A DNA stretch of 27,420 nt from a virus, in the IMG/VR virus record IMGVR_UViG_3300021403_000047, positions 1 to 27,420 of that record; one strand, given 5' to 3'. The notes beneath the pieces were generated by a model that ran no database searches, was not told the DNA's origin, and saw only the letters and a program-made list of their open reading frames with translations. The position numbers were made by a program, and so were the translations under genes. Positions 4,272 through 25,542 of the stretch are shown here, one piece after another (position 1 is the first letter of the stretch; every line of letters starts with the position of its first letter).

Positions 4272-4538
4272 TCACTTGCGCTCTTTCAGTTCACGGATCA
4301 TCGCTTGCAGCTGTGGAGTCGCAGCCAGGTCGAGCTTCTCCTCGTCAGTGGTGCGACGCAGCATCAGCCCGCCAGCCGGGAAGCGGTCGAAGATGGCCAC
4401 TGCGCCGCAGTACGTGCAGAGCGACACATCTCCTGCCTCTGGCCGCTCCTCTGGCGGTGCTGTCGGATCACGAGCGAGGTCGAGCACTTCGCCGCATTCG
4501 AGACAGCGCAGCGGCCCGATCAGCCGCTCTGCGCTCAT
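4272..4538 (-). CDS. Zinc-ribbon protein, 88 aa
   Basis: Two CxxC knuckles (CLECG at about residues 12-16 and CTYCG at about 41-45) separated by 25 residues form a zinc-ribbon. The C-terminal part is a charged helix (PQLQAMIRELKERK). Such small ribbons are common phage DNA- or RNA-polymerase-binding proteins, though the target here is unknown. The ATG overlaps the stop of the ribbon-helix-helix gene (ATGA), so the two are coupled and may act together in regulation. Confidence 0.7.
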   Translation of the reverse strand: MSAERLIGPLRCLECGEVLDLARDPTAPPEERPEAGDVSLCTYCGAVAIFDRFPAGGLMLRRTTDEEKLDLAATPQLQAMIRELKERK

Positions 4539-4705
4539 GATGCCTTCCTTGCCTGCTCGCTCTGGCGCACCGCAGAGAGCAGCACGTCACGGTGCCAGTC
4601 GGCCACGCTCATCTGCTCTCGCTTCGCTGCCTTCTCTATGCGCTTCCACAGCGAGAGCGCGACCCGCACACTCGCCACCTTGCGGACGTGTGTGTCCTCC
4701 TTCAT
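4535..4705 (-). CDS. Ribbon-helix-helix DNA-binding protein, 56 aa
   Basis: The protein reads MKEDTHVRKVASVRVALSL, a beta-strand, followed by LWKRIEKAAKREQMSVADWH and a second helix ending RDVLLSAVRQ. This is the Arc/MetJ/CopG fold: the strand contacts the major groove and two helices form the dimer. The length fits the minimal family size. Its ATG overlaps the previous stop (ATGA) and its stop overlaps the next ATG. I infer a small transcriptional repressor, perhaps of this operon or of the operator-like region at 5819-5943. Confidence 0.75.
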   Translation of the reverse strand: MKEDTHVRKVASVRVALSLWKRIEKAAKREQMSVADWHRDVLLSAVRQSEQARKAS

Positions 4706-8417: not shown

Positions 8418-8672
8418 TCAGTTCTCTTCGACTGCTCTCGCTGCCGCCTCGTGCTGCATCGCTTCGTAATCATCGACCCTGCGCCGTGTCTGATCGGCTG
8501 GCTCCTCTGCGATCTCCCACTCGGCGATGACAGCGAAGGTGCTCCCGTTGTAGAAGCGATGCGGCAGCTCGTGACCTTGCACGCGATTGCAGTGCACCTG
8601 CGATTCATAACTCGGCGATGTGCGAACCCACGGACCGGGCACCATGCAAGTGCTGAGCTTCTTCGGACCCAT
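8418..8672 (-). CDS. Hypothetical phage protein, 84 aa
   Basis: The ATG at 8672 overlaps the methyltransferase stop (TGATG). The protein has two cysteines (STCMVPGPW and HCNRVQGHELPHRFYNG), an HxxPHRF-type segment typical of small phage proteins that may bind zinc with Cys/His, and a C-terminal acidic helix (DDYEAMQHEAAARAVEEN). No family recognised. It is the last gene of its operon, closed by the hairpin at 8374-8412. Confidence 0.65.
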   Translation of the reverse strand: MGPKKLSTCMVPGPWVRTSPSYESQVHCNRVQGHELPHRFYNGSTFAVIAEWEIAEEPADQTRRRVDDYEAMQHEAAARAVEEN

Positions 8673-9490
8673 CAGTAAAACCTCCTGACGATGCGCCGGC
8701 CGATAGCCTCGGCCACTTGTGGAACGACGGCATTACCTAGCGTGCGCAGTCTGTCCATCCGAGCGGGAACCCCATCAGCCATTCGACCCACGTCGGGTTC
8801 AATCTCCCAATCGTGACGTCGGGCGCTATCACGTCGGTCAAGGTCCGCCCCGAGTGGTGGCGAGTCGAAGACGGCGAGCGCTTGGCGGTTGCGTTGCGAG
8901 AGCGCTTGGCGTCCTGCGCTGTCGGAGTAGGAAGCTGCCGCTGCACTGCTGTGCGCAGATTCATGCCGCCGAGTCGCTTCGGAGATGTCCCCGGCCCACT
9001 CACTCCGTCTGCGACGGTCGGCGTAGGCCACGATGAAGACTCGCTGCCTTCTGTGCGGCGCGCCGACATCGGACGCCGCCACGCGATCCCACTCTGTGTC
9101 ATACCCGAGGTCGGCCAGGTCCCCGAGAACGTCTCCCATTCCACGAGAAAGCAAGCCTGAAACGTTCTCCACGAGTGCGAGTCGTGGTCGAAGTAGACGA
9201 ATCGCTCTAGCGAAGGCGGGCCAGAGCCAGCGCTCATCTTCGGCTCCGAGTCTCGACCCGGCGTAACTGACGGGCTGGCAAGGGAAGCCTCCGCAGATGA
9301 GGTCAGGCCGGGCAGTGTCGGCTGAGAGTGTGCGGGCGTCTTCATGGCACGGGACATCTGGCCAGTGTGTCGCGAGGACTTGCCGACAGTAGGGATCATT
9401 CTCACACTGCCAGATGACATCGAAGCCCGCTCTCTCTAGGCCGAGGTCGAGCCCGCCGATGCCGCTGAAGAGTGAGCCCACTGTCGGCAT
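8672..9490 (-). CDS. DNA (cytosine-5) methyltransferase
   Basis: All main motifs of C5 methyltransferases are visible in 272 aa: motif I FSGIGGLDLG (residues 8-17) for AdoMet, motif IV GGFPCQP with catalytic Cys71, motif VI ENV (108-110), motif VIII with RRQRVFIVAYA (147-157), and motifs IX-X RLRTLGNAVVPQVAEAIG near the end. The target recognition segment (about 160-235) is short, so the recognised site is probably 4-6 bp but cannot be read from sequence. No restriction enzyme gene adjoins it, so it is an orphan phage enzyme, likely protecting against host restriction. The ATG lies directly after the stop of the 9491-9655 gene. Confidence 0.93.
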   Translation of the reverse strand: MPTVGSLFSGIGGLDLGLERAGFDVIWQCENDPYCRQVLATHWPDVPCHEDARTLSADTARPDLICGGFPCQPVSYAGSRLGAEDERWLWPAFARAIRLLRPRLALVENVSGLLSRGMGDVLGDLADLGYDTEWDRVAASDVGAPHRRQRVFIVAYADRRRRSEWAGDISEATRRHESAHSSAAAASYSDSAGRQALSQRNRQALAVFDSPPLGADLDRRDSARRHDWEIEPDVGRMADGVPARMDRLRTLGNAVVPQVAEAIGRRIVRRFY

Positions 9491-10332: not shown

Positions 10333-10487
10333 CAGCTCTCCTCCACGATGGTGACGTGTGCTTCCTTGGCATGGCGTAGCTCTGGCGATTCGGCCCACCA
10401 GTCGAAGGGCTCGCAGCGAGGTCGAGCGGCCACGAAGCGGACCCTGATCCCGACCGCTCTGCGCCAGCGGGCCCTGAGTGCGCTCAC
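10332..10487 (-). CDS. Small basic phage protein, 51 aa
   Basis: The GTG at 10487 overlaps the stop of the previous gene (GTGA), and the TGA at its end overlaps the next ATG (TGATG). The N-terminus is strongly basic (VSALRARWRRAVGIRVRFVA) and the rest is mixed (CEPFDWWAESPELRHAKEAH). The basic helix could bind nucleic acid. Its coupling on both ends is the evidence that it is real. Confidence 0.55.
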   Translation of the reverse strand: MSALRARWRRAVGIRVRFVAARPRCEPFDWWAESPELRHAKEAHVTIVEES

Positions 10488-10810
10488 CACGGCTCACCAG
10501 TGCGCTCGGCCCCGATGTACGGATGCCCGCACAGCGGACGCCAGTCAAGCTCTCGGGACCCGTAGAGCGCAGGCAGGTGCCGCACTCGACCGCCAGCGAC
10601 TCCGAGCGACCACGAGGGATCGCGAGGGAAGCGACTGTCACGCCAGAGCGCCGCCCACTTTGCACAGCGCTTGCAACGTTCACGCACTTGAGCATCAAGA
10701 GAATCGGAGCGCTCCGATTCAGATTGAGCACCTAGAGAATCGCCCGATTGAGCACCTAGAGATCGGTCTCTTGATGCTCTTCCACATGGTTGAGCATCAA
10801 GAGAGCCCAT
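10484..10810 (-). CDS. Hypothetical protein with repeat-encoded N-terminus and Cys-bearing domain, 108 aa
   Basis: The ATG at 10810 overlaps the end of the primase gene, with AGGA about 12 bases upstream. Residues 3-41 are built from copies of the 14-bp DNA repeat, giving SLDAQ and SLGAQS motifs. The part after residue 42 looks like a real domain: RERCKRCAKWAALWRDSR, then a Gly/Arg loop, then DWRPLCGHPYIGA, with CxxC and CxH as a possible zinc site. A shorter form could start at the GTG at 10687 (67 aa) but lacks a ribosome binding site. Function unknown. Confidence 0.5.
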   Translation of the reverse strand: MGSLDAQPCGRASRDRSLGAQSGDSLGAQSESERSDSLDAQVRERCKRCAKWAALWRDSRFPRDPSWSLGVAGGRVRHLPALYGSRELDWRPLCGHPYIGAERTGEPW

Positions 10811-10921
10811 TTTCGTCTTCTTCCTGCTCGGAGCGGGTGCTCTCTTGATGCTCAGCTGAAACTTGAGCATCAAGAGGTGCGGGCTCTTGATGCTCAATCT
10901 GATCGGGCTCTTGATGCTCAA
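10688..10921. repeat. Array of nine 14-bp repeats, candidate replication origin (iterons)
   Basis: The repeat TTGAGCATCAAGAG, or close variants, starts at 10688, 10724, 10748, 10790 and 10863 on the plus strand and, inverted, at 10768, 10842, 10884 and 10908. The copies at 10724 and 10748 read TTGAGCACCTAGAG. They are irregularly spaced and are read in different frames, giving IEHQE in one gene and LDAQ in both, so selection is on DNA rather than protein. The array straddles the 3' end of the primase-helicase gene, a usual place for iterons bound by a replication initiator. A repressor operator array is the alternative. Confidence 0.6.
10701..10720. promoter_or_regulatory. 20-bp perfect palindrome inside the repeat array
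   Basis: GAATCGGAGC followed directly by its exact complement makes a perfect 20-bp palindrome with no spacer, lying between the first two repeats. Close by, AATCGCCCGATT (10738-10749) is a second dyad. A zero-spacer palindrome is better suited to a dimeric protein site than to a terminator hairpin. Confidence 0.5.
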
Positions 10922-12812
10922 TCTGTGCGGGCTCCTCTGGCGGGTCCTCTGCGCCGCCAGGAAGGCACACGAGCCAGCTTGAGATGCGCCGCCCCGATGG
11001 GTCGCGCAGGCGCTTCGTGGTGACACCGAGCGACTCCCTGGCTCGCCTGAAGGTCGATGCGGTGATGCCTGCGCTCTGCATGCCCTCGTTCAAGTCCTGA
11101 GCCGTCAGCGGCCCATCGGCCAGAGTCTCTCGCAGCCAGTCCTGAGCGGCGCTCAGTGACGCCCGCTCGCCTTCGTTGGCCACCTTGAAGAGATCAGAGC
11201 TGCGCACGTTCAGGCGCTCTCCGAGCCACTCGACACCCGACGTGTCGATGGGCAGCCCGCCAGCGGGGTCGGGAATGTAGCGGGCTTCGATCTTGAAGGC
11301 GAGCGCAGGAGCTGAAGCCATCGGGCCGAGGTTGGACTTCACCAGCACCACGACACGAGCGTCAGGGTCTGATGGGTCGATGCCCACTCCGAGCACAGCT
11401 CTCGCTGCTGCGGTGAAGGCACGGCTGCCGAGGATGCGATCAAGCGCTGTGGTCGTCGGTGCCTTATTCCAGTGCATGATGCCGACCGCTACCGCTTGCA
11501 GCTCGTCCATCGCTGCGGCGAGTGGAGCGATGGCGCGCCGCACATCTCGCTCCTTGTGGCTGTCTGTCCTGTCGTCGCCGATGTGGACACTGAGCGGGTC
11601 GAGCACCAGCAGTCGAGCGCCGAGCTGGCTCATGGCTGCGCTCAGCTGTGGGAGATCAGCCGGGATCGACAGCCCGCCAGGAAGGTCGTCGATGCGCACG
11701 AAGTGCACCCGAGTGAGATCAGCCCCGGCAGCAGTCAGGCGCGGCACCAGTGTGTGAGCTTCTGAGTCCTCGGCGCTCACGTAGACCACGGAGCAGGGTC
11801 CGCTGACATCGCCTTCTAAGGTGCCTGCTGTCGCCTGAGCGGCCAGCTCGACCGCAAGGGTGGACTTCCCGAGCCCTTCTTGACCAGCGAGGAGCACAGC
11901 GCTTCCGAGTGGCAGCCGGTTGCGCCAGAGCCAGCGCTGATGCTTGACCGTGATGCTCGCTGCCGGGACAGTGCTGAAGCCAGAGAGACTCAGAGGCTCG
12001 ACCGGCAGCGGGACCTTCAGCAGCTTGCTCAGAGCCTGCGGGTAGTACGGCTCCGCACTCTGCGCACCATCGACCGACGTTGACCAGATGGTGACGTGAT
12101 GATCGGGGTGCGGGTAGATCGTGGCCGAAGTCCCATCCTTCGGGCTCTTGCCGGGGCGGGTCAGGTGAGCCTTGCCAGCGTTGTCGATGTGGGGCTCGGA
12201 GTAGCCCGCCGTGAGCATCATGGAGAGCGACGGCTCTAGCGCTTCACGGCCAGGGCTCGACCCGGCAGGCCGCAGCGAGTGCAGCATCCACTCAGGCGCT
12301 TCGGGCGCTTCGATGTGCGAGGGTCGCCCGCTCTCCTCCCAACAGTACGTGCCGCCGTTCGGGTGCAGCGATGGTGGAGCGAGCACCTGCCTGCCCTCGG
12401 CCCGAATGTCGAGATGGTCGCCGAGTGTCTCACGAGGGTTAAAGCCGGGCCATCTGAAGTAGAAGTGCCAGCCGCCGCCAGGAGTCACCACCATCGGACC
12501 CTCGGGCAGCGGGCCGTGCTCCTGCGTCAGCGCAAGAAGAGTGTCTTTGCCGAGCTTGTCTCGACCGTTGTCGTCCACGTCGAGCACGAAGATGCCTGAG
12601 CCCGCCCCGGTGGCGATGCCGATGCCTGCGCCTGCGTGACCGTTCGTCCACCAGTCTTCGATGACCGCAGGGTCAGTCGTGGCGAGCTTCGGCCAGTCAG
12701 CGAGATCAGGCACCTTCGACCCGGTGCGGATCGGGATCACCCGCCAGCCGAAGTCGTGCGCATAGCGCAGCGCGACTGCGAGCATGGTGGGATTGTCCGT
12801 CAAGGCGAGCAC
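10797..12812 (-). CDS. Bifunctional primase-polymerase / RepA-like helicase
   Basis: The 671-aa protein combines an N-terminal Prim-Pol domain (about residues 10-180), seen as GWRVIPIRTGSKVP, GIGIATGAGSGIFVLDVDD with the metal-binding aspartates, and PGGGWHFYF, with a RecA-like helicase domain: Walker A GQEGLGKST (310-318), VVYVSAEDSE, and Walker B RLLVLDPLS (400-408). A C-terminal winged-helix-like part (RASLSAAQDWLRE to about 605) precedes a low-complexity tail made of IEHQEP units encoded by the repeat array. It probably primes and unwinds DNA at the phage origin. The GTG at 12812 directly follows the previous stop; an ATG ten codons in is the alternative. Confidence 0.93.
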   Translation of the reverse strand: MLALTDNPTMLAVALRYAHDFGWRVIPIRTGSKVPDLADWPKLATTDPAVIEDWWTNGHAGAGIGIATGAGSGIFVLDVDDNGRDKLGKDTLLALTQEHGPLPEGPMVVTPGGGWHFYFRWPGFNPRETLGDHLDIRAEGRQVLAPPSLHPNGGTYCWEESGRPSHIEAPEAPEWMLHSLRPAGSSPGREALEPSLSMMLTAGYSEPHIDNAGKAHLTRPGKSPKDGTSATIYPHPDHHVTIWSTSVDGAQSAEPYYPQALSKLLKVPLPVEPLSLSGFSTVPAASITVKHQRWLWRNRLPLGSAVLLAGQEGLGKSTLAVELAAQATAGTLEGDVSGPCSVVYVSAEDSEAHTLVPRLTAAGADLTRVHFVRIDDLPGGLSIPADLPQLSAAMSQLGARLLVLDPLSVHIGDDRTDSHKERDVRRAIAPLAAAMDELQAVAVGIMHWNKAPTTTALDRILGSRAFTAAARAVLGVGIDPSDPDARVVVLVKSNLGPMASAPALAFKIEARYIPDPAGGLPIDTSGVEWLGERLNVRSSDLFKVANEGERASLSAAQDWLRETLADGPLTAQDLNEGMQSAGITASTFRRARESLGVTTKRLRDPSGRRISSWLVCLPGGAEDPPEEPAQIEHQEPDQIEHQEPAPLDAQVSAEHQESTRSEQEEDENGLS

Positions 12813-14774: not shown

Positions 14775-15094
14775 TGAGCACTCGCAGTGGTGCCAGTCTG
14801 CTCAGCTGACTTAGCACTCGGTTGAGACAGCAGCCCTGCTGTCGCTGCGCTCCTCCCGTAGCGGAAGCCCATATACCCGCCGAGAACGGCCACGAGCCCA
14901 CTGACGGAAGTGTCGAGCAGCTGCGTCGCGTTCGCCGATATCGCAACGTCGATCCCCTTGTGACCGACGATCACTTCGATCATGGCTGCCACGGCGATCA
15001 GCCCGACAAGGACAGCGAGCCCGGTGGCGAGCACGAGCGCCACCACATCAGGTCCCCGGCCCTCGGCCTTGTGACCGAGAGACTCGGCCTTCAT
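14708..15094 (-). CDS. Holin-like membrane protein, 128 aa
   Basis: The first transmembrane segment is about residues 16-43 (DVVALVLATGLAVLVGLIAV and onward), and a second, weaker one at about 64-80 (SGLVAVLGGYMGFRYG) follows a polar loop. The C-terminus (85-128) is a Ser/Thr/Ala/Pro-rich cytoplasmic-type tail. Two membrane segments, small size and position directly after the lysin make a holin likely: it would open the membrane to let the lysin reach the wall. The ATG overlaps the lysin stop (ATGA). Confidence 0.75.
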   Translation of the reverse strand: MKAESLGHKAEGRGPDVVALVLATGLAVLVGLIAVAAMIEVIVGHKGIDVAISANATQLLDTSVSGLVAVLGGYMGFRYGRSAATAGLLSQPSAKSAEQTGTTASAQSVVAPATPSDTPLGTASDASE

Positions 15095-16344
15095 CCCTGC
15101 ACCGAGCCAAGGAAGGGAGCGCCGAAGGCGAAGGCACCACCATCAGCGGCTCCGATGTAGTACCCGCCCTTGCTCGCTGCGATCCCGACCGCTGGCCAGT
15201 TCAGGACGATCCCGCCAGTCGAGCCAGCGAAGCTCGCAGCTCCGAAGCAGAAGACTCCACCATCGGCACCGACCAGCCAATACCCGCTGCCGTCAGCGAT
15301 GGCGTCGATGCCCACAATGGGCTGATTGAGCTTCGTGCTGCCCGCAGAGCCCCTGAAGTCGCACCCGAAGGCAAACACGCCCCCATCGGCTCCTGCGAGG
15401 ACGTAGCCGCCGCCAGAGCGAGCGATGCCCACCACTGGCGCATTGAGCTGCATCCCACCGGCTGAGCCGTGGAAGGGTGCATCCCCGAAGGCGAAGACTC
15501 CTCCGTCAGCTGCGGCCAGCCAGTAGCCTTGACCGCTCGGAGTCGCAGCGATGCCCACCACCGGAGCATTGAGCTTCGTCCCACCCGCTGAGCCGTAGAA
15601 CTGCGGAGCGCCGAAGGCGAAGACTCCTCCGTCACTCGCAGCGAGCCAGTACCCACCCGGCACCAGCGCGAGCCCCACGATGGGCGCATTGAGCTTCGTC
15701 TCAGCTGCCGAGCCGTGGAACATGGTCCCGAAGGTGAAGATGCCACCATCAGCCGCAGCCATCGTGTAGCCGCTGTCGTCAGAGTCGATGGCCACGATGG
15801 CGGCATTGAGCCCTGGCGGCACTGGTGGTGGAGTGGGACCCACTGCGCCACCACCGAGCACGCGATCCCACGGGAAGCTCGGACCAGGGTCCCAGTGCCC
15901 GCCGCCTCGTGAGCCGAGATCGACGTGACCACATACACCGGTCCCGTTGCCTTGTGCAGCGCTCGCTCCGATGCGCAGCAGTGGGATGCCAGCAGCTGCG
16001 CACTCCTCGGCGATCCATTGCCGACAGTTATCGAGCATGACCGGGTGACGGTTCCACTCGGCCAGGTCCCATGATGCGAAGCCGCACAGCTCGGTTGAGA
16101 TCGCAGCACTGTTGAAACTCGCCTGCGTCCATGAAGCGTTCTCTCGCTTCACGTACTCACCGATGATGCCGGGCTGATCGTCAATGCCGGTCTGAGAGCT
16201 GACAGCGTTGGAGCGGTTCGCAAAGAAGGAGCCGAGGCTCTCAATCGTCCTGGCTCCTTCGGCTGTGTGCACGACGATGATCCGAGCTCGAGCGCTGCGA
16301 GAACTGAAGCTCGGCGACGCGATCCACTTCCTTTGCAGGCTCAT
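15091..16344 (-). CDS. Endolysin: N-acetylmuramoyl-L-alanine amidase with six C-terminal repeats
   Basis: The 417-aa protein starts with an amidase_2/PGRP-type domain: RIIVVHTAEG with zinc-binding His26 and a later GVCGHVDLGSRGGGHWDPG (about 136-154) supplying the other zinc ligands, all within about 165 residues. A Pro-rich linker (PTPPPVPPG) leads to six repeats of about 40 residues with the core GYWLAAADGGVFAFG, then HGSAGG, LNAPVVGIA. I infer that the repeats bind the cell wall. There is no signal peptide, so a holin is needed. Similar repeats are, from memory, abundant in Acidimicrobiia exoproteins. The ATG overlaps the previous stop (ATGA). Confidence 0.88.
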   Translation of the reverse strand: MSLQRKWIASPSFSSRSARARIIVVHTAEGARTIESLGSFFANRSNAVSSQTGIDDQPGIIGEYVKRENASWTQASFNSAAISTELCGFASWDLAEWNRHPVMLDNCRQWIAEECAAAGIPLLRIGASAAQGNGTGVCGHVDLGSRGGGHWDPGPSFPWDRVLGGGAVGPTPPPVPPGLNAAIVAIDSDDSGYTMAAADGGIFTFGTMFHGSAAETKLNAPIVGLALVPGGYWLAASDGGVFAFGAPQFYGSAGGTKLNAPVVGIAATPSGQGYWLAAADGGVFAFGDAPFHGSAGGMQLNAPVVGIARSGGGYVLAGADGGVFAFGCDFRGSAGSTKLNQPIVGIDAIADGSGYWLVGADGGVFCFGAASFAGSTGGIVLNWPAVGIAASKGGYYIGAADGGAFAFGAPFLGSVQG

Positions 16345-23471: not shown

Positions 23472-24046
23472 TACGCAGCAGCTTCGTGGTCAGCCTGCGC
23501 CCCGTTGCCAGCGACGGTCGTCCAGTCATCGGGGAAGACGAACTTGTAAGCCACCGGTGCAGCCTGAATCGAGAACGTCAGAGGCATCTCAGCCGCTCCC
23601 GACTTCTTCCACGGGATCACCACGTTGTCACTGAGCAGCACCCGAGGAGCCCAAAACGCCCACTCGTCGCCGCCATCGACAGCGGTGATGTAGAGCGCTC
23701 GCACGTCGAGTGTCTCTGCGCCTGCGGGCATGAACTCGCCCGATGTGCTGTCGATAGTGCCACCACCGAGAGCGAGGAGAAGGTTCGCCACACTCGACTG
23801 CATGAGCGTGAACTTCACACTCTTCGGCGCTTCGGTCGTGATGAGTCGCAGGGTGTCGAAGCTCTGCCATCCCTTCAGCTCATCTGTCGTCTTGCCGAAC
23901 GTGAACTCCACACCGTCCTCAGTGGCGAAGCCGTGATCGGTCCATGCCGCAGGCACTGTCGTCGTCGGCAGTGCCGTGTCAGCTTGCGCCGTGTAGATAT
24001 TGCCGGTGCCTGCTACGTACAGCTCGGTTGCATCCTGTCCAGCCAT
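23471..24046 (-). CDS. Major tail tube protein
   Basis: The 191-aa protein begins [20 protein letters not shown], then TDHGFATEDGVEFTFGKTTDELKG, TLRLITTEAPKSVKFTLMQ, VRALYITAVDGGDEWAFWAPRVLL and ends with a beta part PLTFSIQAAPVAYKFVFPDDW. This is the tail-tube beta-barrel fold of siphophages, about the usual length. It is followed by the chaperone genes and the tape measure. The ATG at 24046 overlaps the fibre stop (TAATG). Confidence 0.88.
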   Translation of the reverse strand: MAGQDATELYVAGTGNIYTAQADTALPTTTVPAAWTDHGFATEDGVEFTFGKTTDELKGWQSFDTLRLITTEAPKSVKFTLMQSSVANLLLALGGGTIDSTSGEFMPAGAETLDVRALYITAVDGGDEWAFWAPRVLLSDNVVIPWKKSGAAEMPLTFSIQAAPVAYKFVFPDDWTTVAGNGAQADHEAAA

Positions 24047-25542
24047 TACTGCTCCTTCCCGACAGGGACTGCCTGTCGTGTTGAGTCGCGACGAGGACTG
24101 CTCGCCGCAGGCGACGACACGTCGCCGATGTGTAGATCAGGGCTCGAGCTGGTCGGTGTCTGATAGCTCGGCCAGAATCGGATGCCATTGAACATCAAGA
24201 ACGAGATATTGAGCACGCCGGGAAACTGCGATGCGGTCGAGTAGAGCAGCACATCACCGCTCGGCTGAAGGAGCACTTGCAGCGCCGTGCGTGGTCCGCT
24301 GTAGCCGCCGAGATCGCACGGTGCGAGAACGACTGTCGGCTCACTCGGGCGATAGTTGACCGGCAGGTTTCCGATGCGCACCTGAGCTGTGCCGGTCCAC
24401 GGATTAAGCCCGGCGTAGCCGTCCATCACGATCTCTCCGTGATGACGAGCGAAGCGGATCGGGTTCGTCGGCATCCACACCGGATCGAGTGTGAACGGCA
24501 GCCACAGCGGCGGCTGGTCGAGCTGGTGCAGCGTGACCTCACCGGGATCACCCTTCGGACCAGTCGAGCCTTGCGGACCAGTGTCGCCGTGCGGCCCTCT
24601 GTCACCTTCGATCCCCTGCGGCCCTGGCTCACCTTGCAGACCTTGCGGACCATCTGCGCCAGGATCACCTTGCGCACCGGGAGGACCCTCGGGGCCGTCA
24701 GGACCGTCAGCTCCTTGTGGGCCGACGATCTGTCCGACATCGACCCACCCGCTCGACTGTGAAGCCTGCGACACGAACACGAAGAGATGTCCGTCAAGGG
24801 GCTGCTGGCCGAGGACGGTCTGGTAGAAGAGCCCTTCACCGACTCGACACTGATACGCCGGTGTGCCGGGTCGATCCCAGTCGGGCGGCAGGTAGCCGGT
24901 GGCAGGCAGGTCGAGCGGAGTCTTCGTGATCCCGAAGCGCCCGACGATGACCGTTGCCGCGCCATCTTGACCGGGCGGACCCTGCTCGCCGAGTGCTCCC
25001 CGAGGACCCTGAATGCCTTGAATGCCTTGTGACCCTGGCGGGCCCTGGCCACCAGTCGGCCCACCGGGACCCTGCGCTCCTCGCTGCCCTTCAGAGCCCG
25101 TGTCTCCCTTCTCACCGGGCGGACCCTGCGAACCCTGCGGACCCTGCGAGCCAGAGGCACCAGGAGGACCCTGCGGCCCTGTCACGACCGCAGGATTGAT
25201 CCATCCTGTCGGGTTCGCTTCAGTGCTGACGAAGACCCACAGACCTCCGGTGCGAGTGTCGATGCCCGCCTGCCCGACGAGAAACTGAAAGTCGGCGACC
25301 GGGGTGAAGGGTCCGTCCCATCCCGCAGGGATCAGGCCGCTCGGTGGCAGCTCGCTCGGGTCACGGTTGGAGAAGCTGCCGACGATGGTGGTCGTGGCTC
25401 CTGGCTCACCTGGCACACCGGGCGGACCTTCGACTCCCTGCGGACCATGCGGACCCATCGGGCCGGGAGGACCCACTGTGCCAGCGCTCACCCCGACCTT
25501 GATCTCGGTGGCAGGAAGATCGACGGTCACGGCTCGACTCAT
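24046..25542 (-). CDS. Collagen-like fibre protein, 498 aa
   Basis: Three Gly-X-Y tracts (about 22-48, 117-190 and 265-330; for example [13 protein letters not shown]) are separated by two copies of a ~70-residue domain ([15 protein letters not shown] and [15 protein letters not shown], both with VG, FVFVS and SGW segments). The last ~150 residues form a globular head that begins [15 protein letters not shown] and includes [11 protein letters not shown]. Such trimeric collagen-like stalks with head domains are receptor-binding or decoration fibres. The gene precedes the major tail protein, which suggests a neck or collar fibre. It is coupled to the BppU-like gene by ATGA. Confidence 0.85.

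Follow-up and report, generated by a model that had tools for sequence, protein, structure and literature searches.

Nine short repeats that cluster at the 3' end of a primase-helicase gene in a phage are most likely the replication origin of that phage, or the part of it to which the initiator binds, with the phage's own primase-helicase as the binding protein. Binding, helicase loading, melting and initiation are all inferred. The inference draws on the fixed place of such arrays behind an initiator-type gene, on repeat words that drift as a set, and on the way in which these words track the winged helix of the protein. The window, meaning the whole stretch of viral DNA analysed, is 27,420 bp long, and its virion genes include a tape-measure gene and a gene for a collagen-like, probable tail protein. 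The features discussed below are as follows.

10688-10921, both orientations: array of nine repeats, proposed iteron origin; its position agrees with the arrays of homologous loci
10688-10701, plus: copy, exact TTGAGCATCAAGAG
10724-10737, plus: copy, variant TTGAGCACCTAGAG, two mismatches; TTGAGCACCT is common to the unit of relative L052
10748-10761, plus: copy, variant TTGAGCACCTAGAG, two mismatches
10768-10781, minus: copy, two mismatches
10790-10803, plus: copy, exact, spanning the primase stop codon (10797-10799)
10842-10855, minus: copy, one mismatch
10863-10876, plus: copy, exact
10884-10897, minus: copy, exact
10908-10921, minus: copy, exact
10797-12812, minus: primase-helicase gene, 671 aa, with Prim-Pol, RepA/AAA_25 helicase, winged helix and disordered tail (Pfam and model)
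12288-12773, minus: Prim-Pol domain, residues 14-175 (Pfam PF09250, E 9.5e-40)
11460-11945, minus: AAA_25 helicase core (RecA-fold, RepA-like), residues 290-451 (PF13481, E 6e-27)
10968-11195, minus: winged-helix domain at the C-terminus, residues 540-615, proposed to read the repeats (AlphaFold2 model)
10484-10810, minus: downstream ORF of 108 aa, overlapping the primase stop with its start and consisting of array DNA over its first ~40 codons
14309-14593: XRE protein gene
4535-4705: small NikA-like ORF

A scan of the window allowing at most two mismatches recovers nine 14-bp copies of TTGAGCATCAAGAG, five forward and four reverse, in agreement with the overall coordinates and the counts given by the original prediction; five copies are exact, one has a single mismatch and three have two. 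When up to three mismatches are allowed, the window holds 12 matches where 2.9 are expected, a number reached by none of 100 dinucleotide shuffles, and the three matches outside the array are solitary and far off. No exact or one-mismatch copy of the word lies beyond the array in the entire 27,420-bp virus record, and the repeats are essentially confined to one place. Of the nine copies, four belong to the primase tail and four to the overlapping ORF downstream, and the remaining one is placed over the stop codon. The copies are read as IEHQE or LDAQ in the primase frame, depending on orientation as had been claimed, and as SLDAQ or SLGAQ in the downstream ORF. That one word yields four different peptides argues for selection on the DNA. 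The downstream ORF, which is only a possible gene, has no Pfam match, and 10484-10825 has no PHROGs match.

The base composition of the window gives less guidance. A+T content in the array is about 38-52% per 50 bp, compared with 37% for the window, without a distinct A+T-rich core, and no sharply A+T-rich segment separates two sets of repeats in the array. A check of GC skew around 10800, proposed with the original prediction, gave no clear support: a shallow local minimum at about 10.5-11 kb is accompanied by a lower one at about 16-17 kb, and the skew is uninformative for the origin.

The primase-helicase was modelled with AlphaFold2 from 69 aligned window and locus sequences, with a mean pLDDT of 86. 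The model consists of a RecA-fold core, to which the nearest solved folds include RSF1010 RepA, DnaB and RadA, and a confidently modelled C-terminal winged helix encoded just ahead of the array. The winged helix comprises helices at 540-566, 571-580 and 585-595 and strands at 598-603 and 609-615 (residue numbers are model numbering plus 264). From residue 627 the tail has pLDDT mostly below 50 and is predicted to be disordered. The array begins at codon 631, 16 codons past the winged helix, and continues over the stop into the next ORF. Because the array is translated within a tail predicted to be disordered, the DNA rather than the protein appears to be constrained, and the earlier inference to that effect holds up.

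Elsewhere in the window, a minus-strand ORF at 1917-2741 matches the Mom protein family (PF25680, E 2.5e-40) and is a probable DNA-modification, anti-restriction gene; the same phage carries a C5-cytosine methylase gene at 8672-9490. The collagen-like Gly-X-Y protein (24046-25542, minus; PF01391) is encoded among tail genes and is probably a tail fibre. A 417-aa protein encoded at 15091-16344 (minus) has many ADGGVFAFG-type repeats in its C-terminal half, and its N-terminal half is amidase-like by eye, with only a sub-threshold Pfam match.

The 14-mer was to be looked for at the corresponding position in related phages, and no relative with it there was found. Single-protein searches of viral contigs with the primase and with the exonuclease returned no close relative of the window, the DNA of the array region had no match among phage records beyond a 35-base chance hit, and no exact pair of inverted copies of the 14-mer was present in viral contigs. 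None turned up because the word diverges between relatives. Degenerate pairs of direct copies are present in 19 viral contigs; all of these repeats are one-directional and the contigs lack the primase-helicase, so that they were rejected as relatives. Unrelated viral contigs (L178-L196) carry nearly the same 12-mer in one direction only, often at multiples of 9 bp and probably as coding sequence.

Distant homologues of the primase-helicase, mostly at about 26-43% identity, were gathered from phage and plasmid records and by profile searches of viral contigs and bacterial genomes. In each of the first four to be checked, repeats cluster where the homologous gene ends. The words in these four are TGCACCGACTGG in Mycobacterium phage Boilgate, TGTCACAC in Microbacterium phage StrawberryJamm, TGACGCGA in a Streptomyces plasmid and TGTATGTAAGTG in the Corynebacterium plasmid pCG2.

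For a family-wide test, the end of the AAA_25/winged-helix domain was placed by profile in 171 loci. After removal of sequences more than 70% identical, 127 non-redundant loci with enough downstream DNA remained, and the test region in each was the 430 bp that start 30 bp ahead of the domain end and finish 400 bp past it. Each 10-mer was scored by counting its forward and reverse copies up to 160 bp away to the left and right, with one mismatch allowed and simple repeats excluded; the 10-mer length and the scan window were set once the first four examples had been seen and about 20 loci had been tried, a small part of the 127. At least five bidirectional copies are found in the test region of 70 of the 127 loci (55%). 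Windows of equal size from other parts of these loci reach that number in 19 of 2751 cases (0.7%), and none of 378 dinucleotide shuffles of test regions reaches five. Per 100-bp bin from 0 to 400 bp, arrays are seen in 53, 52, 21 and 7 of the 127 loci, and elsewhere between -1500 and +2500 the count is near zero. The loci are related by descent, so that the counts can be taken as independent only as far as the 70% identity cut ensures. Fewer than four bidirectional copies were detected by the 10-mer scan in 36 of the 127 homologous loci (~28%), so that the gene-end array is common but not universal; some of these loci may hold shorter or more degenerate arrays, and others may have their origin elsewhere. 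As judged by these sequence comparisons, the clustering of short repeats in both orientations at the 3' end of this gene is a family-wide trait.

Of 90 arrays, 41 are contained in the coding tail, 24 run across the stop codon and 25 are located entirely past it; position tracks the end of the gene and not the reading frame. In several relatives, among them L008, L012 and L016, the array-encoded tail is followed in the same ORF by a Cys-rich, zinc-ribbon-like end with CxxC pairs. The units of the family fit the loose pattern TGRnCnnn with CTT or ACTG after it, and the window units TTGAGCATCAAG and TTGAGCACCTAG have their first nine or ten bases in common with TTGAGCATCTTC (L082, L100) and TTGAGCACCTTC (L052). 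Polarity and spacing were analysed in 44 well-fitted arrays. Neighbouring units on the same strand are most often 9 bp apart, neighbours of opposite orientation whose TG ends point inward tend to be 22-27 bp apart, and the first unit is on the non-coding strand in 37 of the 44. At 50-150 bp, mean A+T is about 6 points over the locus mean. Oriented by its TTGAGCA half, the window array has a polarity opposite to that of most relatives; its polarity is ambiguous, given that the core TTGA-GCA-TCAA is nearly palindromic.

The repeat words diverge in concert and covary with the winged helix. The proteins of L031 and L049 are 59% identical, and each locus has six units in the common order ++-+--, with spacings of 21/22/56/22/21 and 21/24/54/24/21. 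The words are of AAGGTGATCAA type in the one and AAGGTTGCCAA type in the other, and in every one of the six copies the difference falls in one and the same half. Between L099 and L054 (37% identical) a single core position differs, again in all copies. In 73 loci, the similarity of the units correlates more closely with that of the winged helix (r 0.36) than with that of the helicase core (r 0.26); in a partial Mantel test the winged helix retains r 0.27 (p 0.0005) after correction for the core, and the converse is 0.115 (p 0.0015). Residue 601, which is part of the wing strand, has the strongest association of any protein column with the CTT/ACTG class of word, and is mostly Lys in relatives with CTT-type words. 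In this column scan, which was not corrected for phylogeny, the winged helix does not exceed the helicase core in mean residue-word association. Since the top column is in the winged helix but the domain is not enriched, the residue-level association is only a hint.

If the array is an origin, the primase-helicase would bind the repeats at the end of its own gene through the C-terminal winged helix, copy by copy and on both strands. Several protomers would thereby be gathered on an array that is locally richer in A+T. One or more RecA-fold helicase rings could then be loaded and the DNA opened at the array, after which the N-terminal Prim-Pol domain would make the first primers.

Some iteron sets act as control sites. 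The array may accordingly bind the primase-helicase yet serve as a copy-number brake, an incompatibility determinant or an autoregulatory site, with melting and priming elsewhere. Gene-end position and bidirectionality would look alike under this reading, and the lack of a distinct A+T-rich core in the window array is in its favour. It is nonetheless unlikely: the loci hold no other regular repeat cluster, the profile being flat outside about 0-400 bp, and the gene-end arrays of SaPI, PICI and SCC elements are known or probable origins (PMC6092414, PMC7581432).

The original prediction had left the choice between a probable origin and a multi-site operator. Its first half is strongly supported by the family-wide gene-end arrays; the second remains possible, with a lower likelihood. 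Operators can take the form of clustered repeats, and genes for other possible phage regulators, the XRE protein and the NikA-like ORF, are both present in the window. There is, however, no repeat near either of these genes or near any other start, about half of the copies are inside the primase coding sequence, the array in relatives comes after the primase-helicase gene, and unit similarity tracks the primase's own winged helix, all of which makes control by such a regulator quite improbable.

There is very little to recommend an RNA element, in which inverted copies would fold in the transcript as a terminator or translational switch. The array transcript does fold far better than shuffles (z -9.1), but the pairing comes from many inverted copies and not from one stem, any set of inverted copies would fold likewise, and what relatives conserve is spacing, polarity and word rather than one stem-loop. 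Selection on a repetitive peptide tail is scarcely tenable either: the copies are translated, partly with a 24-nt period (PDQIEHQE), but the peptides change with orientation and frame, the word runs on past the stop codon, the tail is predicted to be disordered, more than one quarter of relatives' arrays are wholly beyond the stop, and coding repeats of the same word in unrelated contigs are one-directional.

The origin reading can be compared with systems already described. The origins of SaPIs and PICIs are directly 3' of rep, Rep recognises SaPI origins through its C-terminal domain, and PICI pri-rep-ori segments replicate plasmids (PMC6092414, PMC7581432); Rep is related to D5-type helicases (PMC7581432). 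The window array resembles these modules in position, as a cluster of short repeats at the 3' end of a helicase gene, with origin activity inferred. In SaPIs the C-terminal domain binds the iterons; for the window binding is inferred, with only indirect support from winged-helix covariation. Two iteron sets flank an A+T-rich region in the SaPI/PICI type; the window array is locally richer in A+T than the window at large, without a distinct A+T-rich core. The window helicase is a RecA-fold RepA/AAA_25 protein fused to Prim-Pol and not of D5 type, and the element is a tailed phage rather than a satellite, with homologues on phages, chromosomes and plasmids. The window module would therefore work like a SaPI/PICI module without being a member of that group. 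Similarly, Cch2 from SCCmec uses its C-terminal domain to bind short repeats that closely follow its gene (PMC7581432), but there are three 5-nt iterons, the helicase is of the D5 family and the A-family primase-polymerase is separate.

An essential origin-like region lies immediately downstream of the Prim-Pol/helicase gene of pRN1, ORF904 (PMC4234260). Like the window protein, ORF904 combines Prim-Pol, helicase and winged helix, but it has an SF3 helicase, and in place of a repeat array pRN1 has one stem-loop of ~100 bp. In a survey of primase families, the winged helix of multidomain PrimPol/RepA-type helicase proteins was suggested to recognise the origin (PMC5862659). These proteins have the same kind of domain order as the window protein, and the passages of the survey drawn on here name no DNA site. 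Classical iteron plasmid origins also adjoin an initiator-type gene and are confined there, but have direct repeats and a WH1-WH2 Rep, as opposed to five and four copies in the two orientations and a different protein family. The iterons of phage lambda are inside the coding sequence of the initiator gene O. Lambda O is not a helicase or primase, and its iterons are internal to the gene, whereas the window array is at the gene end; the position of the lambda ori iterons is noted in PMC7157519. No description of AAA_25/Prim-Pol proteins with iterons at the gene end was found in the open-licence papers searched, subscription papers and preprints being outside the scope of the search.

With less assurance than for the array itself, we favour the view that it belongs to a large, undescribed class of replicons, comprising phages, prophages and plasmids of many bacterial phyla, in which RepA-type primase-helicases have a gene-end iteron origin, origin specificity evolves as the word is replaced in concert in all copies along with the winged helix, and the wing strand (residue 601 here) is a specificity position. 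The gene-end arrays supply a candidate DNA site for the winged helix of RepA-type PrimPol proteins. The origins of most phages and prophages are unmapped, and, if this view is true, the origin of any element with this primase-helicase family would be readable from its sequence. Paired differences in word and winged helix would likewise be ready-made tests of how initiator specificity evolves. The plan of an origin behind the helicase gene, read by the C-terminus of the helicase, would then exist with two unrelated helicase folds, and the origin organisation of PICIs would not be unique to them.
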